A stretch of DNA of 34,100 nucleotides from the NCBI RefSeq assembly GCF_021731985.1, contig NZ_JAKFWH010000083.1, positions 1 to 34,100 on the forward strand, written 5' to 3'. Numbering within the stretch: the first letter of the stretch is position 1; each line of letters opens with the position of its first letter. Below the pieces are notes generated by a model. The model was not told the origin of the DNA, did no database searches, and saw only the letters and a program-made list of their open reading frames with translations. The position numbers and the translations under genes were made by a program. The stretch comes from Nitrosomonas sp. Lineage in GTDB: Bacteria; Pseudomonadota; Gammaproteobacteria; Burkholderiales; Nitrosomonadaceae. Shown here piece by piece: positions 14,439 to 22,308 of the stretch.

Positions 14439-17400
14439 TCAAGCTGCCAATGCGTCGGCGATCATCTCCGCTTGTTTGAGCACCGTTTCGGTAGCCAGCA
14501 ATTGCATATCGGGCGGATAGCCGAATTGCCGTAATGTCCGCTTCACAATCACTTTGAGTTTGGCTCTGACACTTTCCTTGATGGTCCAGTCTATCGAAGC
14601 GTTTTCGCGTACCCGCTGCGTCAACACGATGGCCAATTGCCGCAATTGATCGTTCTGCATCAATTCTTTCGCATTGTGATTACTGGCTATCGCGGTATAA
14701 AATGCATACTCAAACTCGGTCAGACCCAGTGTTTTCGGCTCAAGATCGGAGGCGGTGATTTCCTTGCTGATTTTAATCAGTTCATCCATGACTTCGGTGG
14801 CCGTCAGGATTTTGTTCTGGTATTTCCTGATGGCATTTTCCAGCATTTCCATCAAGGATTTGCTTTGTACCAGATTCTTTTTAGCGCGGACTGTCAGCTC
14901 GTCATTGAGTAGTTTTTTGAGCACTTCCAGCGCCAGATTCTTATGTTCCATGCCTTTGAGCTCCAGCAGAAACTCTTCGGACAGGATGGAAATATCCGGT
15001 TTCTTGATCCCCGCCGCATCGAAAACATCAATTACCTGTTCGGATACCAGCGCTTTATCGATGACTTGCCGGATGGTCGTCTCAATTTCTTCATTGGTTT
15101 TGCCGGAGCCGGTACGATCAAACTTCGCCAGTCGCGCTTGGACGGCCTGGAAAAAAGCCACTTCATCTTTGGCATCCATGGCTTGTGCGTGCGGAATGGC
15201 AATCGCAAAAGCCTGGGATAATGCGGTGACTGCATTGATATAGCGTTTCTTGCCGTCGTCCAAACCCAGAACATGTTCTTCGGCGGCCAGAATGAGCGAC
15301 AGCTTTTTAGCGGTACCGGCCGCAAAGTAATTCTCGTAAGGAAAGCCGTGATACATCGCCGAGATGTCTATGATTTTCTCCAGCATCAGTGTAACGGCTT
15401 GTTCTTGTGCCAGTGCCGGATCGCCCTTGCCACCGGCATCGGAATAGAACGATAAGGCTTCTTTCAAGTCGGCCGCAATGCCCAGGTAATCCACCACCAG
15501 CCCGCCGGGTTTGTCTAAATAAATACGATTGACCCGTGCAATCGCTTGCATCAAATTGTGCCCTTGCATCGGCTTGTCGATGTACAGCGTGTGCATACCC
15601 GGCGCATCAAAGCCGGTCAGCCACATATCGCGCACAATCACGAGTTTTAATGCATCCGCGATATCTTTCATGCGCTCGGCCAGAACTTTGCGCTGCTGCT
15701 TGGTGGTGTGGTGTTTCGCCATCTTGGCGCCATCCGACGATGCCGCCGTCATGACGACTTTAATCACACCTTTGTTCAAATCTTCTGCGTGCCATTCGGG
15801 TTTGAGTTTGATGATCTCTTCATACAGGTTGGCAGCAATACGGCGGGACATCGCCACGATCATGCCTTTCCCGGAAAAAACTTCTTGCCGCGCTTCGAAA
15901 TGGCTGACGATATCTTGGGCGATATTGCGGATGCGCTGTTCACTGCCGACCAATGCTTCGATTTGCGTCCATTTCGCCTTGGCCTTCCCGGTTTCGCTGA
16001 AGTCTTCCTGATCCAGTTCCTCATCGAGTCCGACAATGAGTTTTTTGCCTTCATCGCTCAGGGCCACTTTGGCCAAGCGGCTTTCATAGTAGATACGCAC
16101 CGTAGCGCCATCTTCTACCGCCTGGGCAATGTCGTAAATGTCGACATAATCCCCGAACACTGCTGGCGTGTTCACATCGGTCTTCTCAATCGGGGTGCCG
16201 GTAAAGCCTAAATACGTCGCGTTGGGCAACGCATCCCGCAGATATTTGGCAAATCCGTAAACTACTTTCTTGCCGATAACTTTGCCCTGGGCATCTTTTT
16301 CGTCGATGGTTTTAGCGCTGAAACCGTATTGGGTGCGGTGTGCTTCATCCACAATCACGACAATGTTGCCGCGGCTGGATAATTCCTCATGCACATTGCC
16401 TTGTTCCGGCTGAAACTTCTGGATCGTCGAGAAAATGACCCCGCCGGATGCGACCTTGAGCAACTCTTTGAGTTGCTGCCGGTCTTCCGCCTGTTTGGGT
16501 TCTTGCCGGAGCAGTTGTGAAGAAGCGGCAAAGGTGTCGAACAACTGATCGTCCAGATCATTGCGGTCGGTAATCACCAGGATAGTTGGATTATTCAGGG
16601 CAAGCACAATTTTTCCGGTGTAAAACACCATCGACAGCGATTTGCCCGAGCCTTGCGTATGCCACACCACACCCGCTTTTTTGTCGCCCTGCGATTGTTG
16701 CGCCACACTGGGCAAGCCGTAGCTGGCCGGATTCTGCCGTATTTGGCGCGCAGGCAATTCACTGCCGCAATCCGCCGCCCGCAATGTCGAAGCGATGGCG
16801 GCATTCACCGCGTAATACTGATGATAAGCCGCCAGTTTCTTAACCGTGCTGATGCTGATCACACCGGTTTTTAAGTCTTCTTTTTTGCTCTTCTCAAATA
16901 CGATGAAATGCCGGATCAAATCCAGCAAGGTGGATTTATTCAACATGCCGTTGATTAAGATTTCCAATTCAGCCCGTAGGGGCGCATTGAATGCGCCCTT
17001 TGGACGGATGCCATCCACCCCTGCAATTCCATCGGCTGATTTCCATGTCATGAAGCGGCTCAGCCCTGCTGACAGCGATTCTGCCTTAGCTTCCAATCCG
17101 TCCGAAATAACGAGAATCGCATTGTAAGTAAACAGACTGGGAATGGTTTGCTGGTACGTGCCGATTTGCCGGTAAGCGGATTGCATCGTGGCGTTTTCAT
17201 CGGCGGCATTTTTAAGCTCGATGACCACCACCGGCAAACCATTGATGAACACAACGAGATCCGGACGTTTCTTCTGATTGTTCTCAATCACCGTAAATTG
17301 ATTGGCCACCACGAATTCGTTATTTTCCGGATGATCAAAATCTATCAACCAGACGATATCGCCGCGTTCATTACCATCTTGCTGATAACTGACCTTCACG

Positions 17401-17687
17401 CCTTCGGTGAGCAGGCGATGGAAAGTTTCGTTGCTGGTGAGTAATTCCGGGGAATGAATGCGCTCGATTTCCTTCAGGGCGGTCTGTAATACCGTGGCCG
17501 TTATGCCGGGGTTGATGCGCTGGAGTGCTTTTTCTAACCGGCCGGTAAGCAATACTTCGTCATAGCGGGCGCGTTCGGGATGGTCGCCATCGGGGGCAAT
17601 GTCGGGTGCGTAGATAGGGCAGTAACCGAGCTGCGTGAATAATTTTATCGCTAGCTCTTCAATCGCCGATTCGGTGAGCCTAGACAT
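14439..17687 (-). CDS. hsdR: Type I restriction enzyme, R (endonuclease/translocase) subunit
   Basis: A 1082-residue HsdR. The PD-(D/E)xK nuclease is at the N-terminus (Asp143 in [10 protein letters not shown], Glu157 and Lys159 in VVIELKN). The superfamily 2 helicase follows: Walker A around 343-350 ([13 protein letters not shown]), DEAH at 447-450 ([14 protein letters not shown]), motif [14 protein letters not shown] and motif [18 protein letters not shown]. It cuts unmethylated DNA after ATP-driven translocation, in complex with HsdM and HsdS. Residues about 222-239 ([18 protein letters not shown]) are encoded by a palindromic repeat inserted in frame between the nuclease and helicase domains. 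The start ATG lies inside the RAYT stop region (ATGTCTAG), so translation is probably coupled. In textbook loci hsdR is adjacent to hsdM or hsdS; here three other genes intervene. Confidence 0.96.
16976..17023. repeat. REPIN-like palindromic element inside hsdR (degenerate)
   Basis: GTAGGGGCGCATT followed after one base by AATGCGCCC forms the first palindrome. A second, worn one follows (GGACGGATGCCATCCACCCC). Both arms match the pattern of the copies in the RAYT gene and hsdM. The insert is read in frame as [18 protein letters not shown] and disturbs no known HsdR motif. Confidence 0.75.
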
Positions 17688-18231
17688 AATAAGTGTCCGT
17701 ATCCCAACATCGGGGATTGGTTTGAATATATTCCGCGATTTTCAGGTAAGCATCCTCATCGCGGATAATGTGCTCGTAATAATTGCGCTGCCAGAAACGT
17801 TGACCGGATGTACCCGATATTGCATTAAGCCGTTTGGTCACCGACGATTTAAACCCCCGCACAACGTCCCCCAACGTAGGGGCGCGTTGCACGCGCCCTG
17901 GTTGTTCATCCGAGTCCGCATATTCATGCGGGTGCGTGCCATTGGGGCGCATGCAATGCGCCCCTACGAGTTGGATGATACCGTGGACGTGATTAGGCAT
18001 GATGACAAATTCGTGCAATACGATATGGGAACGAATATATTCTGTTTTGCGCCATTCTTCATCCACGACGATCCCCAATTCATTGAATTGCATCTCACCA
18101 TCAACAATTTCCCCAAACAACGGCACCCGGTTATGTGTACAAACGGTAATAAAATACAAACCGGCCTGTGAATAATCATACCCTTGCAAACGAATCGATT
18201 TGCGGTGATGGATGGTTGGATTGTAGGTCAT
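17680..18231 (-). CDS. REP-associated tyrosine transposase (RAYT, Y1/TnpA-REP family)
   Basis: A 183-residue HUH-type single-strand transposase. It begins with YNPTIHHRKSIRLQGYDYSQ and GLYFITVCTHNR, typical of this family. The HUH metal motif is HVH at 81-83 in FVIMPNHVHGII. The nucleophilic Tyr is at 151 or 152 in RFWQRNYYEHIIRDEDAY. RAYTs act on palindromic REP sequences. Here such palindromes lie next to the gene, within it (residues about 89-121, [10 protein letters not shown] to QRAPTLG) and in neighbouring genes. Its stop overlaps the hsdR start by 8 bp, so it is part of the restriction-modification transcript. Full family length and motifs suggest it may be active. Confidence 0.93.
   Translation of the reverse strand: MTYNPTIHHRKSIRLQGYDYSQAGLYFITVCTHNRVPLFGEIVDGEMQFNELGIVVDEEWRKTEYIRSHIVLHEFVIMPNHVHGIIQLVGAHCMRPNGTHPHEYADSDEQPGRVQRAPTLGDVVRGFKSSVTKRLNAISGTSGQRFWQRNYYEHIIRDEDAYLKIAEYIQTNPRCWDTDTYYV
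17876..17967. repeat. REPIN-like element inside the transposase gene
   Basis: Two palindromes face each other: GTAGGGGCGCGTTGCACGCG... at 17876-17900 and GGGGCGCATGCAATGCGCCCC ending in TAC at 17944-17967. They are separated by about 43 bp. The outer ends GTAGGGGCG and CGCCCCTAC are inverted repeats, the layout of a REP doublet (REPIN). All 92 bp are read in frame. Confidence 0.82.
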
Positions 18232-18255
18232 GGTGTCCGGGTTATTGTTGGGATT

Positions 18256-18282
18256 GTAGGGGTAATGATTATTTACCCCTAC
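18256..18282. repeat. REP-like palindrome, AT-core subtype
   Basis: GTAGGGGTAA and TTTACCCCTAC form a palindrome with a TGATTA centre. It shares the GTAGGGG...CCCCTAC ends of the coding-region copies but has an AT-rich core. It lies 24 bp before the RAYT start and just after the antitoxin gene stop. Confidence 0.75.
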
Positions 18283-18297
18283 GGCATAACCGTCATT

Positions 18298-18480
18298 TTA
18301 CCGACGTGGAATCGCGTTTAATTGCCGCTCAATGCCACCCAGATTCGCCAATCTTTTGGCGCTTTCACGCTCAATCAGGGCTTTCAAGGCTACTCTGACC
18401 AGTGCAGATTTTTTCTGCACATGAGTCAAGGCTCGCGCTTTTTGCAGTAATTCGTCATCCAGTACGATGGTGGTTCTCAT
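18298..18480 (-). CDS. VapB-like antitoxin, without a visible toxin partner
   Basis: A 60-residue protein matching VapB antitoxins that have an N-terminal ribbon-helix-helix or similar DNA-binding fold: MRTTIVLDDELLQKARALT, then KSALVRVALKALIERESAKR and a short tail (LANLGGIERQLNAIPRR). VapB normally neutralises the VapC PIN-domain RNase encoded directly downstream. Here only a REP-like palindrome (18256-18282) and the RAYT gene follow, so the toxin gene is missing. It could be a relic, an antidote against a toxin elsewhere, or a regulator of this operon. It is bracketed by two REP-like palindromes. Confidence 0.75.
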   Translation of the reverse strand: MRTTIVLDDELLQKARALTHVQKKSALVRVALKALIERESAKRLANLGGIERQLNAIPRR

Positions 18481-18535
18481 AGCTCTTCTCCGAATAGATC
18501 ATCGAATGATGCACGTAATTGTACATGCGATCTTT

Positions 18536-18560
18536 TAGGGCAAATAATCATTTGCCCCTA
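18536..18560. repeat. REP-like palindrome, AT-core subtype
   Basis: TAGGGCAAAT and its partner TTTGCCCCTA form a palindrome around an AATCA centre. The core is close to that of the copy at 18256-18282. It touches the stop codon of the rhuM-fic gene (ends at 18558) and lies 55 bp before the antitoxin start. Confidence 0.7.
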
Positions 18561-19559
18561 TGGATTATTGCCATTGATCAAATTGATGATGACTTTCACC
18601 ATCGTGTCTTTTTCCTCGGGCTTGCTCTCAGCAATCAGCAACGTAAACGCAACCAGGGCATTATCGGCGATGCGCTTTTCTCCGTCTGCATTAAGGAGAT
18701 AATCATGACGCGCCAGAAACCAGACAAACAGCGCGGCGGCAATGCGTTTGTTGCCATCGGAAAAAGAGTGATTCTTGACGATGAAATACAGCAGATTGGC
18801 GGCTTTTTCTTCAATACTGGGATAGAGTTCTTCGCCGCCAAACGTTTGGTAAATGGTTTCCAACGAGCTTTTGAAGGAATCATCTTTTTCGTTGCCGAAC
18901 AATCCGCCCAGTTTCTCCTGTTCACGCCACAGCCGGATTTGCTGGATCGCTTCATCATAGGAAATTCTGCGCTGTCCGGCTTGCTGGATTCCGGTCACCT
19001 GTAAACGCTGATGATCGTAATCGTCCAACACCGTCAACGCGTGGCTGTATTGCTCCAGGATCGACAGAATGCCTTGCGATTCGGAAGCGGTTAAGTCTTT
19101 CTGTTGGAACAAGCGTGAAGATAAGGCAATCGCTTGTTTTAAATCCGCGAGTTTTTGCTGTTGCGTCTGAAGTTTCTGTTCATTCAGCGCATACCCTTGC
19201 ACCAGGTAGCGCTTGAGTATGTTGCTGGCCCAGATACGGAATTGCGTGCCTTTCTTGGAATTGACGCGATAACCGACGGAAATAATGGCGTCGAGGTTAT
19301 AAACCTTGATGTTTCTTTTGACCTGCCGCCTGCCTTCTTGCCGAACTACCGAGGATTTCCCGGTAGTTGCCGACTCGATCAACTCACCGGATTGGTAAAT
19401 GTTCTTCAGGTGCAACCCGATGGTATCGCTATCTTTATCAAACAAGGCCGCCATCTGCGCCTGCGACAGCCAAACCGTTTCGTCCCGCAAGCGCACTTCC
19501 ACCCCCGACAACCCATCGTCCGGCTGGTAAATCACAATATTGTCTACCGGTTCGATCAT
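18558..19559 (-). CDS. RhuM-family protein with C-terminal Fic/Doc domain
   Basis: A 333-residue two-part protein. The N-terminal half (about 7-125) is the RhuM domain (VEVRLRDETVWLSQAQMAAL, HLKNIYQSGEL, KVYNLDAIISVGYRVNS, FRIWASNILKRYLVQGY), a family named from a Salmonella pathogenicity island and often found beside type I restriction genes. The C-terminal half carries a Fic/Doc motif, His264 to Arg272 (HSFSDGNKR), in which Fic enzymes transfer AMP or phosphate to target proteins. Its start codon overlaps the hsdS stop (ATGA), so the two are translated in a coupled way. No separate inhibitory antitoxin is adjacent in the same frame; the VapB-like gene 77 bp downstream is the nearest. A role in regulating or policing the restriction system is inference. 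Confidence 0.9.
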   Translation of the reverse strand: MIEPVDNIVIYQPDDGLSGVEVRLRDETVWLSQAQMAALFDKDSDTIGLHLKNIYQSGELIESATTGKSSVVRQEGRRQVKRNIKVYNLDAIISVGYRVNSKKGTQFRIWASNILKRYLVQGYALNEQKLQTQQQKLADLKQAIALSSRLFQQKDLTASESQGILSILEQYSHALTVLDDYDHQRLQVTGIQQAGQRRISYDEAIQQIRLWREQEKLGGLFGNEKDDSFKSSLETIYQTFGGEELYPSIEEKAANLLYFIVKNHSFSDGNKRIAAALFVWFLARHDYLLNADGEKRIADNALVAFTLLIAESKPEEKDTMVKVIINLINGNNP

Positions 19560-20701
19560 ACGGTTACCCGTACCTCGCCGCTCATCAGTTTGGGAAGCAA
19601 GGTGTCGCGGAGGGTTTCTAGGGTTTGAATTTGAATATGGTTTGCATCTATTTTGTTGTAAAAGAAAATTAAATTTTCTTCTAATACTTCTAATCTTTCT
19701 TTCGGTGGAATTGTGAGTTTAATTTGTTTCAGTCCATTTATAGTCAGGGCTGCTTGCGTGCTGCCAATTGTTATTGAATCCAAATGTTCTTTTCCAATGC
19801 TAGATTTTAACCAACAGTAAATAATAATACTTGGAATTACAGTAAAATCTTTAAACCACGTTAAGTTTCCATCTTTAAAATAAAACTTATCATTCTTTTT
19901 CACTCGATACGGAATTCCTAGAGTACCTACTGAAGTAAGTAAAATATCGCTGTCTATTGGGATACCAAATTTTTCTTGTATCTCATGAAATCTATTCTCA
20001 GTTATACAAAGCTCACTTTTAGTATTACCAGTATTGTGTAGTTCTATAATTTCTTTACTGCGATAAAAAGGAATGCCTGTTGTAACATACTCAGAATAAA
20101 ATATTCTTTTGCTGGATGTGACCGTTAGCAATTCACCAAGTGGCTTTTCTTCCCAATCCCCCGTTGCCTCCACCACAAACCACTGCCTAAAAAGCGTTTC
20201 AGCCATGGCTTCGAGGGTTTTGTTCTGGCGGTGCAACAGGTCGATTTTGTCGTCAAGGCTGCTGAGGACGAAGGCGATGGCTTTTTGTTCTTCAATAGGA
20301 GGTAATAGAATATCTAAATCATATACTTCATCCCTGCTAGTTGATGGTATAGCAGAGCCGCTATCCATTGAGTTTATATCAATGCATTTAAACCAATAAT
20401 ACAAATAGCCTACATCCAAATCTTCGAGCTTGTTTTTTGTGTAAAAAGCAGTGTCTATAACAAAAAAAGGAAACTTTGCTAAGTGAACACCTCTGTAAGC
20501 GCCTTTTCTTCCGATTATTAGCGATGGCTCATCATGAAGGTATATTTCTGTAACACCAATTTTTCCATTTGTACCAAAAACATCAAAATAACTATTTCCA
20601 TTTCGATAGTTCTGAAGTGCCTTGCCATATTCCAGTGTCAAAATATCCCTGATTTTTAAATCGCGCCATTTTGGTGAATATATACTTTGAATCCCGCTCA
20701 C
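19556..20701 (-). CDS. hsdS: Type I restriction-modification specificity subunit
   Basis: A 381-residue HsdS that recognises a bipartite DNA target. There are two target-recognition domains, about 10-150 and 185-345. Each is followed by a conserved helical spacer: [20 protein letters not shown] with [20 protein letters not shown] in the middle, and [20 protein letters not shown] with [19 protein letters not shown] at the end. The start is GTG overlapping the hsdM stop (GTGA). Its stop overlaps the rhuM-fic start. The recognition-domain DNA is clearly more AT-rich than hsdM and hsdR, as expected where these domains are exchanged by recombination. The target sequence cannot be predicted from here. 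Confidence 0.95.
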
Positions 20702-22308
20702 ACCTTCACCCTCGCCAAACTCTCAACAATCGCCTGATTCAACGCCGCCTCTTCCTGCAATTGCACCTCGAATTCCGCCTTCAACGCGGCAAAACGCTCG
20801 GGGAAATTAAAATCATCTTCTTCATCCGGCAGCCCGACATAACGCCCCGGCGTCAGTACATAATCCAGTTCGGCGACACGCGAAATCGACACCGACGCGC
20901 AAAACCCCCGCACATCCCCGTAGGGGCGGATTGCATCCGCCCCTATCGCATCCGCGGCATCATCAGGGCGCATGCAATGCGCCCCTACGGGTGGGGATGG
21001 ATCGGCCGTGCGCCAGGCGTGGTAGGTGCTGGCAATTTGCTGGATGTCTTCGCGGGACAGTTCGAGGGTGCGGCGGTTGATCAGATGGCCGAGGTTGCGC
21101 GCGTCAATAAACAGGATTTGGTCCTTACGGGGATGTTCATTATTACGTGCGTGGTTCATGAACCACAATCCGGCAGGAATTTGCGTGTTCAAAAACAACT
21201 TGCCCGGTAAATTCACGATGCAATCGATCAGATTGCCTTCTGCGATCAGGTTCTTACGGATTTCCCCTTCGCCGGAAGTTTTGGAAGTCAGCGCGCCTTT
21301 GGCCAACACCACCCCGGCAATGCCCACGGGCGATAAGTGATACGCAAAATGCTGCAGCCAGGCAAAATTGGCATTGCCCGCCGGGGGTGTGCCGAATTGC
21401 CAGCGGCCGTCATTGCGTAATAACTCGCCGCTCCAGTCACTGACATTGAACGGCGGATTGGCGATGATGAAATCGGCTTTCAGGTCTTTGTGGGCATCGT
21501 TCAGGAACGAACCTTCGTTATTCCATTTCACTTGCGAGCTGTCGATACCGCGAATGGCGAGGTTCATTTTCGCCAGGCGCCAGGTGGTCTGGTTGCTTTC
21601 CTGGCCGTAAATGGAAATATCGTTGATGCGGCCTTGGTGCTCTTCGACAAACTTTTCCGATTGCACGAACATGCCGCCGGAGCCGCAGCAGGGATCAAAT
21701 ACCCGGCCTTTGTAGGGTTCCAGCATCATCACCAGCAATTCGACGATGCTGCGCGGCGTGTAGAACTGGCCGCCTTGCTTGCCTTCGGCCAGGGCGAATT
21801 CACCGAGGAAATACTCGAACACATGGCCAAGCACATCGGCGCTGCGGGATTTGGCATCACCCAGCGCGATATTGCCCACCAGATCAATAAGTCCGCCCAG
21901 ACTCGCGGGGTCGAGGTTCTGCCGGGCAAAGACTTTGGGCAATACGCCTTTCAGTGACGGATTTTCTTTCTCGATGGCATCCATCGCCGCATCCGCAAAC
22001 TTACCGATATCCGGCTGTTTGGCTTGAGCGACGAGATGCGGCCAGCGTGACTCGGGCGGGACATAAAAGATGTTTTCGGCTTTGTACTCGTCTTTGTCTT
22101 CGGGATCAGATCCGGCATAGTTGCCGAGTCCTGCTTGCAATTTGGCGAAATGTTCTTCGAATGAGTCGGAAATATATTTCAGGAAGATTAAGCCCAGCAC
22201 CACATGTTTGTACTCTGCGGCATCAATGTTCTTGCGCAGTTTGTCAGCGGCTTTCCAGAGCTGTTTTTCCAGCGGTTCTTGTTTGATTTCTTTCGCAGCT
22301 TTCACCAT
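20698..22308 (-). CDS. hsdM: Type I restriction-modification DNA adenine methyltransferase
   Basis: A 536-residue HsdM that methylates adenine N6 using S-adenosylmethionine. The N-terminal helical domain ([35 protein letters not shown]) is followed by the SAM-binding motif at 203-213 ([13 protein letters not shown]) and the catalytic NPPF at 284-287 ([12 protein letters not shown]). The C-terminal part ([20 protein letters not shown]) is typical. Between WRTADPS and YGDVRGFC, residues about 441-463 are an insertion coded by a REPIN-like repeat ([20 protein letters not shown]), not part of the family fold. An ATG with AAGGAA some 12 bases upstream starts the gene. It is first in the island; transcription may begin in the spacer that holds the MITE. 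Confidence 0.96.
20920..20988. repeat. REPIN-like element inside hsdM
   Basis: GTAGGGGCGGATTGCATCCG... (20920-20946) and AGGGCGCATGCAATGCGCCC... ending in CTAC (20965-20988) are two palindromes 18 bp apart. The outer ends are inverted repeats. The length of 69 bp is a multiple of three and the insert is read through in frame with no stop, in a linker near the HsdM C-terminus. Confidence 0.85.

Follow-up and report, generated by a model that had tools for sequence, protein, structure and literature searches.

A RAYT gene and an operon-confined set of well-formed GTAG REP palindromes in a type I restriction-modification operon of Nitrosomonas

The analyzed DNA is a stretch of 34,100 nucleotides from Nitrosomonas sp., an ammonia-oxidizing bacterium (RefSeq assembly GCF_021731985.1, contig NZ_JAKFWH010000083.1, positions 1 to 34,100), referred to below as the window. 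Its minus strand carries, in this order, hsdM, hsdS, a fused RhuM-Fic gene, an open reading frame (ORF) of 60 amino acids, a repetitive extragenic palindrome (REP)-associated tyrosine transposase (RAYT) gene, and hsdR; hsdM, hsdS, and hsdR stand within one gene cluster, as expected of a type I restriction-modification (R-M) system, and the cluster from hsdM to hsdR is named an operon, judged by its layout alone. REPs tagged with GTAG are found within this operon, and in this strain and ten relatives all well-formed copies recovered by our search are seen in RAYT-bearing copies of the operon. With a probability of roughly 0.6, we ascribe this to a RAYT spreading REPs locally, to protein linkers tolerant of them, and to recombination between operons.

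Results

Palindromic elements of the window

The palindromic elements are as follows:

16976..17024, REPIN-like pair at hsdR site A, between the HSDR_N and SWI2_SNF2 matches; partly decayed
17876..17967, REPIN-like pair within the RAYT gene, separating the HuH and Tyr motifs
18256..18282, single REP immediately upstream of the RAYT start, intergenic
18535..18561, single REP that overlaps the TAG stop at the 3′ end of RhuM-Fic
20920..20988, REPIN-like pair at hsdM site B, approximately residues 441–463, in a predicted loop

The original prediction, made from the window's letters, placed elements inside hsdR, the RAYT gene, and hsdM, translated in frame in linkers, with the likely transposase in the same operon. 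All three elements are present at those places, each as a pair of palindromes, and the peptides quoted there are seen in the translations; the putative transposase is the RAYT gene, with its HuH and Tyr motifs. The pairs are inverted, with GTAG at the outer ends, except for the decay of one arm of the hsdR pair (17002–17024), and all three are translated in frame. RNA folding yields z-scores of −7.0 for the hsdM pair, −7.3 for the RAYT pair, only −1.7 for the hsdR pair, and −4.7 and −2.7 for the single REPs at 18256–18282 and 18535–18561, respectively.

The bare 9-mer of the repeat, with one mismatch allowed, has six matches, compared with a mean of 3.7 in shuffled sequences, and 18 of 100 shuffles reach six; since it is not rare, the evidence rests on the palindromes. 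The pattern GTAGGGGCN{8,16}GCCC matches the whole genome of this strain five times (the reversed control, once), and the genome-wide search suggested along with the original prediction thus returned matches inside this operon only; a genome-wide REP family in this strain is rejected for well-formed copies. REPINs, described by Bertels and Rainey in 2011, reportedly consist of two inverted REPs, with a RAYT in the genome. The pairs of the window have the two inverted GTAG-tagged REPs (decayed in hsdR); unlike REPINs, they form no dispersed high-copy population, the five genome-wide matches being confined to a single operon, and hence are filed only as REPIN-like.

Confinement across the genus

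A search of 71 genomes of the genus with the same pattern produced 117 matches, of which 81 form palindromes (no more than one mismatch across 8 stem pairs) and correspond to 68 distinct elements. In 11 genomes, namely this strain and ten relatives, all 50 well-formed GTAGGGGC palindromes lie in RAYT-bearing operon copies, and this exact-pattern search found no palindromic element outside the operon, intergenic space included. For well-formed copies, the REP population of these genomes is private and confined to the operon. Two of the 11 assemblies are nearly closed (G060, one contig; G045, two contigs). The remaining 18 distinct palindromic elements are spread over nine other genomes, G043, G040, and G107 included, and one element, in G017, sits in a related hsdR; none of the 36 non-palindromic matches is located in an operon, and no genome among the 71 has more than nine matches.

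A separate GTAG family (GTAGGGGCAGATTCCATATCTGCCC), with six elements on five contigs, is seen in another genome of the genus (G107).

Presence of the RAYT gene and decoration of hsdM and hsdR

The window was compared with 20 stretches retrieved from 18 relatives. The RAYT gene is present in 13 operons of 12 genomes. Any REP at all is seen in 13 of 13 operons with the RAYT gene and in none of six without it (G020, G053, G029, G084, G019, and G094, the G094 contig being without hsdM); this is nearly automatic, because the RAYT gene of this family carries a REP of its own, and the telling count is therefore the decoration of hsdM and hsdR. Among operons with the RAYT gene, 9 of 12 carry a GTAG REP in at least one of these two genes, vs 0 of 6 among those without it. 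The former count sets aside G042, where a truncated RAYT gene runs into an hsdR remnant; G031, whose contig ends upstream of hsdR, and G047a, the second contig of G047, are not separate rows in the RAYT counts. In G031, hsdR is decorated. Within the operon, REPs fill eight classes of site.

On the HsdR tree, the RAYT label needs four changes, at least two of them forced by well-supported branches (second pieces of split hsdR genes, in G020 and G030, are omitted, and two of the 19 rows, G031 and G068, are ungrouped); a single clean clade of RAYT-bearing operons is rejected. The RAYT gene closest to that of this strain (97% over residues 1–120) is found on contig C6 of G016, in an operon where the hsdR site is empty and hsdM is without a GTAG REP. 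G016 has two R-M operon copies (L104 and L105), decorated differently, and the L104 RAYT gene has an in-frame stop.

History of the elements in this strain

The nearest relative is G020, whose HsdM is 94% identical and which is the sister of this strain on the HsdR tree; its operon has neither the RAYT gene nor GTAG REPs, and its hsdR (L102) is split into two reading frames. The hsdM gene of this strain follows G020 up to the linker and then shows the left flank of G030; the right flank is common to this strain, G030, G013, G005, and G016b; beyond it the gene returns to G020 and, toward the 3′ end, resembles G008. By these alignments, the hsdM allele looks imported via a short recombination tract from decorated relatives similar to G030 and G013. 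That the hsdM pair inserted afresh in this strain is rejected, its flanks being those of the G030/G013-like tract. In hsdR, the flanks are close to G020 on both sides and approximately 75 bp differ, comprising the element and a short 3′ stretch common to other decorated alleles, with native codons replaced. This patch may be an import as well, or else an insertion with loss of native sequence. A codon change beside the element is common to 9 of 10 decorated hsdR alleles.

These flanks bear on the possibility that an operon decorated in a REP-rich donor was spread by horizontal transfer and recombination, the RAYT being a bystander with no local transposition. The derived 3′ flank shared by REPIN alleles at hsdM site B, the imported appearance of the tract in this strain, the shared codon change in hsdR, and the scatter of RAYT-bearing operons over more than one clade of the HsdR tree are all what such a history would leave; however, none of the 71 genomes exceeds nine matches of the pattern, sites and classes vary by genome, the hsdR site A elements being of class T1 in five cases and T2 in five, and the most similar RAYT gene, on C6 of G016, stands in an operon with an empty hsdR site and no GTAG REP in hsdM. 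We consider such a passenger history unlikely, though not far-fetched, and retain local spread by the RAYT, with recombination as one of its components.

Landing sites in HsdR, HsdM, and RAYT proteins

Relatives with empty sites, proposed as a check of the original prediction, exist: among 19 HsdR sequences read at site A, ten are empty (G020 included) and nine filled (this strain included). Site A has 39 residues here vs 29 in G020 (+10), and the HsdM site B linker, between YHAWR and GFC, has 29 residues here vs 6 in the empty orthologues (G053, G029, G084, and G019). Of the expectation that selection kept only stop-free, length-neutral copies, the first half is reasonable, as only stop-free in-frame copies would survive; length neutrality does not hold, since both sites are longer than their empty counterparts.

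Site B is readable in 38 homologues, of 52 sources. It is short (5–8 residues) in 17; holds GTAG REPINs in five, all Nitrosomonas; an ATTCCC-type palindrome in nine (eight Nitrosomonas, which may represent one event, and G089, with a different peptide); another GTAG REP in one (Caldimonas, L246); and other longer stretches in six. In an inverted-repeat test on the latter six, L032 passes (0.005), L248 is marginal (0.04), and L159, L179, L034, and L024 fail; the test is a weak one, the five REPIN sites scoring 0.000, 0.005, 0.03, 0.16, and 0.36, and the nine ATTCCC sites from 0.005 to 0.11. The site B stretches of L159, L179, and L034, which do not pass, resemble known repeats by eye. ATTCCC elements are scarce (0–8 exact matches per genome). 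In two genomes ATTCCC palindromes stand in rows approximately 250–650 bp apart (G020:C1:3670483-3671947 and G106:C1:2121522-2122311), which might be a cassette array. At site A of HsdM, a second REP class is seen in G007, G045, G054, G060, G013, and G030.

One HsdM linker thus appears to hold different palindromic repeats in different lineages, which looks new. The AlphaFold model of HsdM places the site B insert within a low-confidence run (437–461), where residues 441–460, with a predicted local distance difference test score (pLDDT) of approximately 31–34, are the lowest-scoring blocks of the entire chain; the RAYT model is poor at its insert (90–115) and equally so at the N-terminus. Both models are weak overall (mean pLDDT 65.3 for HsdM and 53.8 for RAYT).

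It might be argued that the two HsdM linkers are just highly permissive loops in which any palindromic repeat of a genome can accumulate, and to which the RAYT adds nothing special. The variety at site B, i.e., GTAG REPINs, the ATTCCC palindrome, a CCCTCTCCC-type repeat, and the Caldimonas GTAG REP, agrees with this, but it leaves unexplained why well-formed GTAG REPs were found nowhere else in 11 genomes, intergenic space included. We regard tolerance of the loops as an improbable sole explanation; in the preferred reading, it acts together with local spread by the RAYT.

Genes of the operon

The genes of the operon, all on the minus strand, are as follows:

14439..17687, minus strand, hsdR, type I restriction subunit, 1082 aa (Pfam HSDR_N, SWI2_SNF2, and T1RH-like_C; TIGR00348)
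17680..18231, minus strand, RAYT, 183 aa (NHVH and WQRNYYEH motifs; NCBIfam NF047646, 66.5 bits with a cut-off of 80; family alignment)
18298..18480, minus strand, 60-aa ORF between the RAYT and RhuM-Fic genes (read from the sequence)
18558..19559, minus strand, RhuM-Fic fusion gene (Pfam Virulence_RhuM and Fic)
19556..20701, minus strand, hsdS, specificity subunit (Pfam Methylase_S)
20698..22308, minus strand, hsdM, methyltransferase subunit, 536 aa (Pfam N6_Mtase and HsdM_N)

The product of the 60-aa ORF presumably resembles a ribbon-helix-helix antitoxin. The ORF adjoins the RhuM-Fic gene, and DNA similar to it is present elsewhere in the G020 stretch.

The RAYT family and its linkage to type I R-M genes

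In alignment, the RAYT of the window has, by the definitions of Quentin et al. (2018; PMC6006769), the motifs NHVH (NH[IFV]H) and WQRNYYEH (WQ) and, as YIQTNP, the class 2 signature Y...NP. Its Tyr motif differs from the subclass 2.4 consensus YIxNNP in that T replaces the first N; the REP between the HuH and Tyr motifs, with the frame kept, is a feature of that subclass. The protein scores below the curated cut-off of NF047646 and has no Pfam match at 0.001, likely because the insert splits the domain; these models describe RAYTs or Y1_Tnp generally, not subclass 2.4.

The wider family was sampled as the best 80 RAYT relatives in named genomes, of at least 573 confirmed; three of the four best are Nitrosomonas. 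A GTAG hairpin is seen within the ORF in 73 of these 80 homologues vs 18 of 1600 codon-shuffled RAYT ORFs. It lies near the middle of the ORF (5–95% of positions, 0.47–0.64) and is read in two of the three frames, never in the frame that makes TAG a stop. Chance palindromes or codon convergence, with which the commonness of the bare 9-mer would agree, are rejected by this codon-shuffle count and by the absence of palindromic elements elsewhere in the 11 genomes, and retain practically no probability.

The hairpins may instead be kept for an action in the operon mRNA, e.g., with the RAYT protein or nucleases tuning expression. The folds of the hsdM and RAYT pairs are much more stable than those of shuffled sequences, and the internal hairpin of the RAYT gene recurs over several phyla in two reading frames, as such a role would predict; but three RAYT-bearing operons do without GTAG REPs in hsdM and hsdR, and the hsdR pair is decayed in its folding as well. 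A regulatory role appears quite unlikely to us as the explanation, and local spread by the RAYT is again preferred.

An HsdM or HsdR homologue is found in the flank of 22 of the 80 RAYT loci, in all cases co-oriented, and the RAYT gene stands between hsdM and hsdR in all ten loci holding both. Nitrosomonas accounts for three of the 22, and among the remainder are Methylocaldum, Nitrotoga, Nitrospira, two Thermus, Chitinophagales, Anaerolineae, Desulfuromonadales, and a spirochaete. HsdM is in the flank of 9 of 45 loci (44 genomes) vs 0.51 expected from per-genome HsdM counts. Neighbor scans cover 77 loci, the three Nitrosomonas loci being excluded. Among the 143 immediate neighbors, the commonest Pfam families are Methylase_S (8), HSDR_N (7), and N6_Mtase (6); among the 97 farther ORFs, these three are absent from the 25 of 136 families listed, and since the listed families have one or two members each, each of the three has at most one member there. 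Sampling by likeness to this RAYT could favor R-M-linked relatives; the first 40 loci yield 12 linked cases and the second 40 yield 10. Related RAYTs adjoin type I R-M genes in several phyla, and this looks new.

REP locality and R-M gene decoration outside the genus

Pattern counts in 40 genomes of the 80 RAYT loci range from 0 to 643 per genome, and in some genomes do not exceed the reversed control. Where a genome has 1–10 matches (15 genomes), 36 of 80 matches fall in the fetched RAYT locus vs 0.38 expected if they were evenly spread; 26 of these 36 are in the RAYT gene itself, and the flank holds 10 of the 54 remaining matches. In high-copy genomes, only a small share of REPs is near the RAYT gene. 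Locality is a mark of low-copy members, with Nitrosomonas the clearest case.

Outside the RAYT ORF, the 77 loci hold 102 elements, of which 19 are in ORFs of at least 150 aa (coding fraction 0.80). These involve 15 ORFs, ten of them scanned for families: two are hsdR (L168 and L176) and one is an Eco57I-type methylase (L199); weak, sub-cut-off matches are seen for HSDR_N in L217 (19.7 bits) and Y1_Tnp in L166; the remaining five comprise a glycosyltransferase, a hexapeptide transferase, an oxidoreductase, and two ORFs with no family match. R-M genes outside Nitrosomonas are hence decorated as well, although frequent decoration was seen only in that genus.

Discussion

The proposed course of events is the following. 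The hsdM-hsdS-rhuM/fic-rayt-hsdR operon would carry a RAYT of subclass 2.4 type together with a small private REP population. As a HuH single-strand transposase, the RAYT most likely mobilizes REP hairpins chiefly in the vicinity of its own gene, presumably by cutting these REPs; acting in this way, it would cause REP copies to accumulate in the operon and not elsewhere in the genome. Copies landing in disordered linkers, in a frame free of stops, would be kept as short peptides, in hybrid proteins that probably still work. Short-tract recombination would afterwards transfer decorated alleles among related R-M operons, and would have brought the hsdM element, and perhaps that of hsdR, into this strain.

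Several observations weigh against this course. Genome searches relied on one exact pattern, so that decayed REPs elsewhere would escape. The GTAGGGGC palindromes also occur without a RAYT in prophage-like regions of G043 and G040 (L237, G043:C1:1297000-1316500, and L239, G040:C10:50000-62000), beside terminase, capsid, and Mu gpT matches; no RAYT of this type was found within these two stretches. The hsdM and hsdR genes are free of GTAG REPs in three RAYT-bearing operons (G008, G016a, and G047), and the RAYT label on the HsdR tree is no more clustered than in shuffles (91 of 500 as low). The operons are related and not independent, and so no probability is claimed for the link between RAYT and decoration. 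The class of the REPs flanking RAYT genes often differs from that of the internal REP; judged by eye, RAYT type and REP class match strictly for the internal element in the RAYTs compared, but not for the flanking ones, and this match is therefore not used as proof. Finally, REPs are dispersed in many genomes that hold a RAYT of this type (pattern matches: Nostoc calcicola, 643; Okeania, 316), hence locality is not a property of subclass 2.4 as a whole.

The elements and the RAYT are of known kinds. In-frame intragenic GTAG REPs in many genes have been published by Di Nocera et al. (2013; PMC3733652), who describe GTAG and CGTC intragenic REPs; the in-frame position, the frequent pairs, the REP ends supplying TAG stops, and the occurrence of different REPs at about one site, as in recB of two Xanthomonas species, all have counterparts here. 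Most families described there are genome-wide, unlike the one in the window, with the exception of T. roseum GTAG-23, which clusters at few loci; the word "restriction" is absent from the main text. REPs inside and flanking tnpAREP genes of subclass 2.4 (Bertels group 4) are likewise described by Quentin et al. (2018; PMC6006769), which rejects any claim that a REP inside a RAYT gene is new; the HuH and Tyr motifs, the flanking and internal GTAG REPs, and the frame-keeping insert between the motifs are the same here. The difference is that the RAYT of the window resides in a type I R-M operon with other genes decorated, and no word starting with "restriction" occurs in that main text. The likeness to Rickettsia palindromic elements, drawn in the original prediction, is apt in kind, as these too are palindromes translated in frame in functional genes; the two papers above provide nearer precedents, and the REP-type Rickettsia elements listed in PMC3733652 are CGTC-tagged, a tag absent from the GTAG-tagged elements of the window. 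Our literature search turned up no report of a RAYT within an R-M operon (most subscription papers, preprints, and Bertels et al., 2017, were outside its coverage), and searching Nitrosomonas together with REPs yields nothing that looks related. Within the reach of these searches, the confinement of the REP population to the operon, the recurrent linkage of RAYT with R-M genes, and the shared HsdM landing site look new.

A broader and doubtful possibility is that subclass 2.4 RAYTs are true accessory genes of type I R-M operons across phyla, the REPs in the RAYT and hsd genes marking the operon as their working site; the enzyme would act on single strands of the operon, during replication or after uptake, and so aid short-tract exchange of hsd alleles or tune its own mRNA.

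To our knowledge, it is an open question why RAYTs persist as single genes in bacteria. The repeated presence of RAYT inside type I R-M operons, along with the operon-confined REPs, ties this persistence to DNA defence. Related strains with and without the RAYT are a natural system for studying REP spread, cis-preference, and effects on R-M, and an HsdM linker with lineage-specific repeats would be a useful case of protein growth by palindrome capture.

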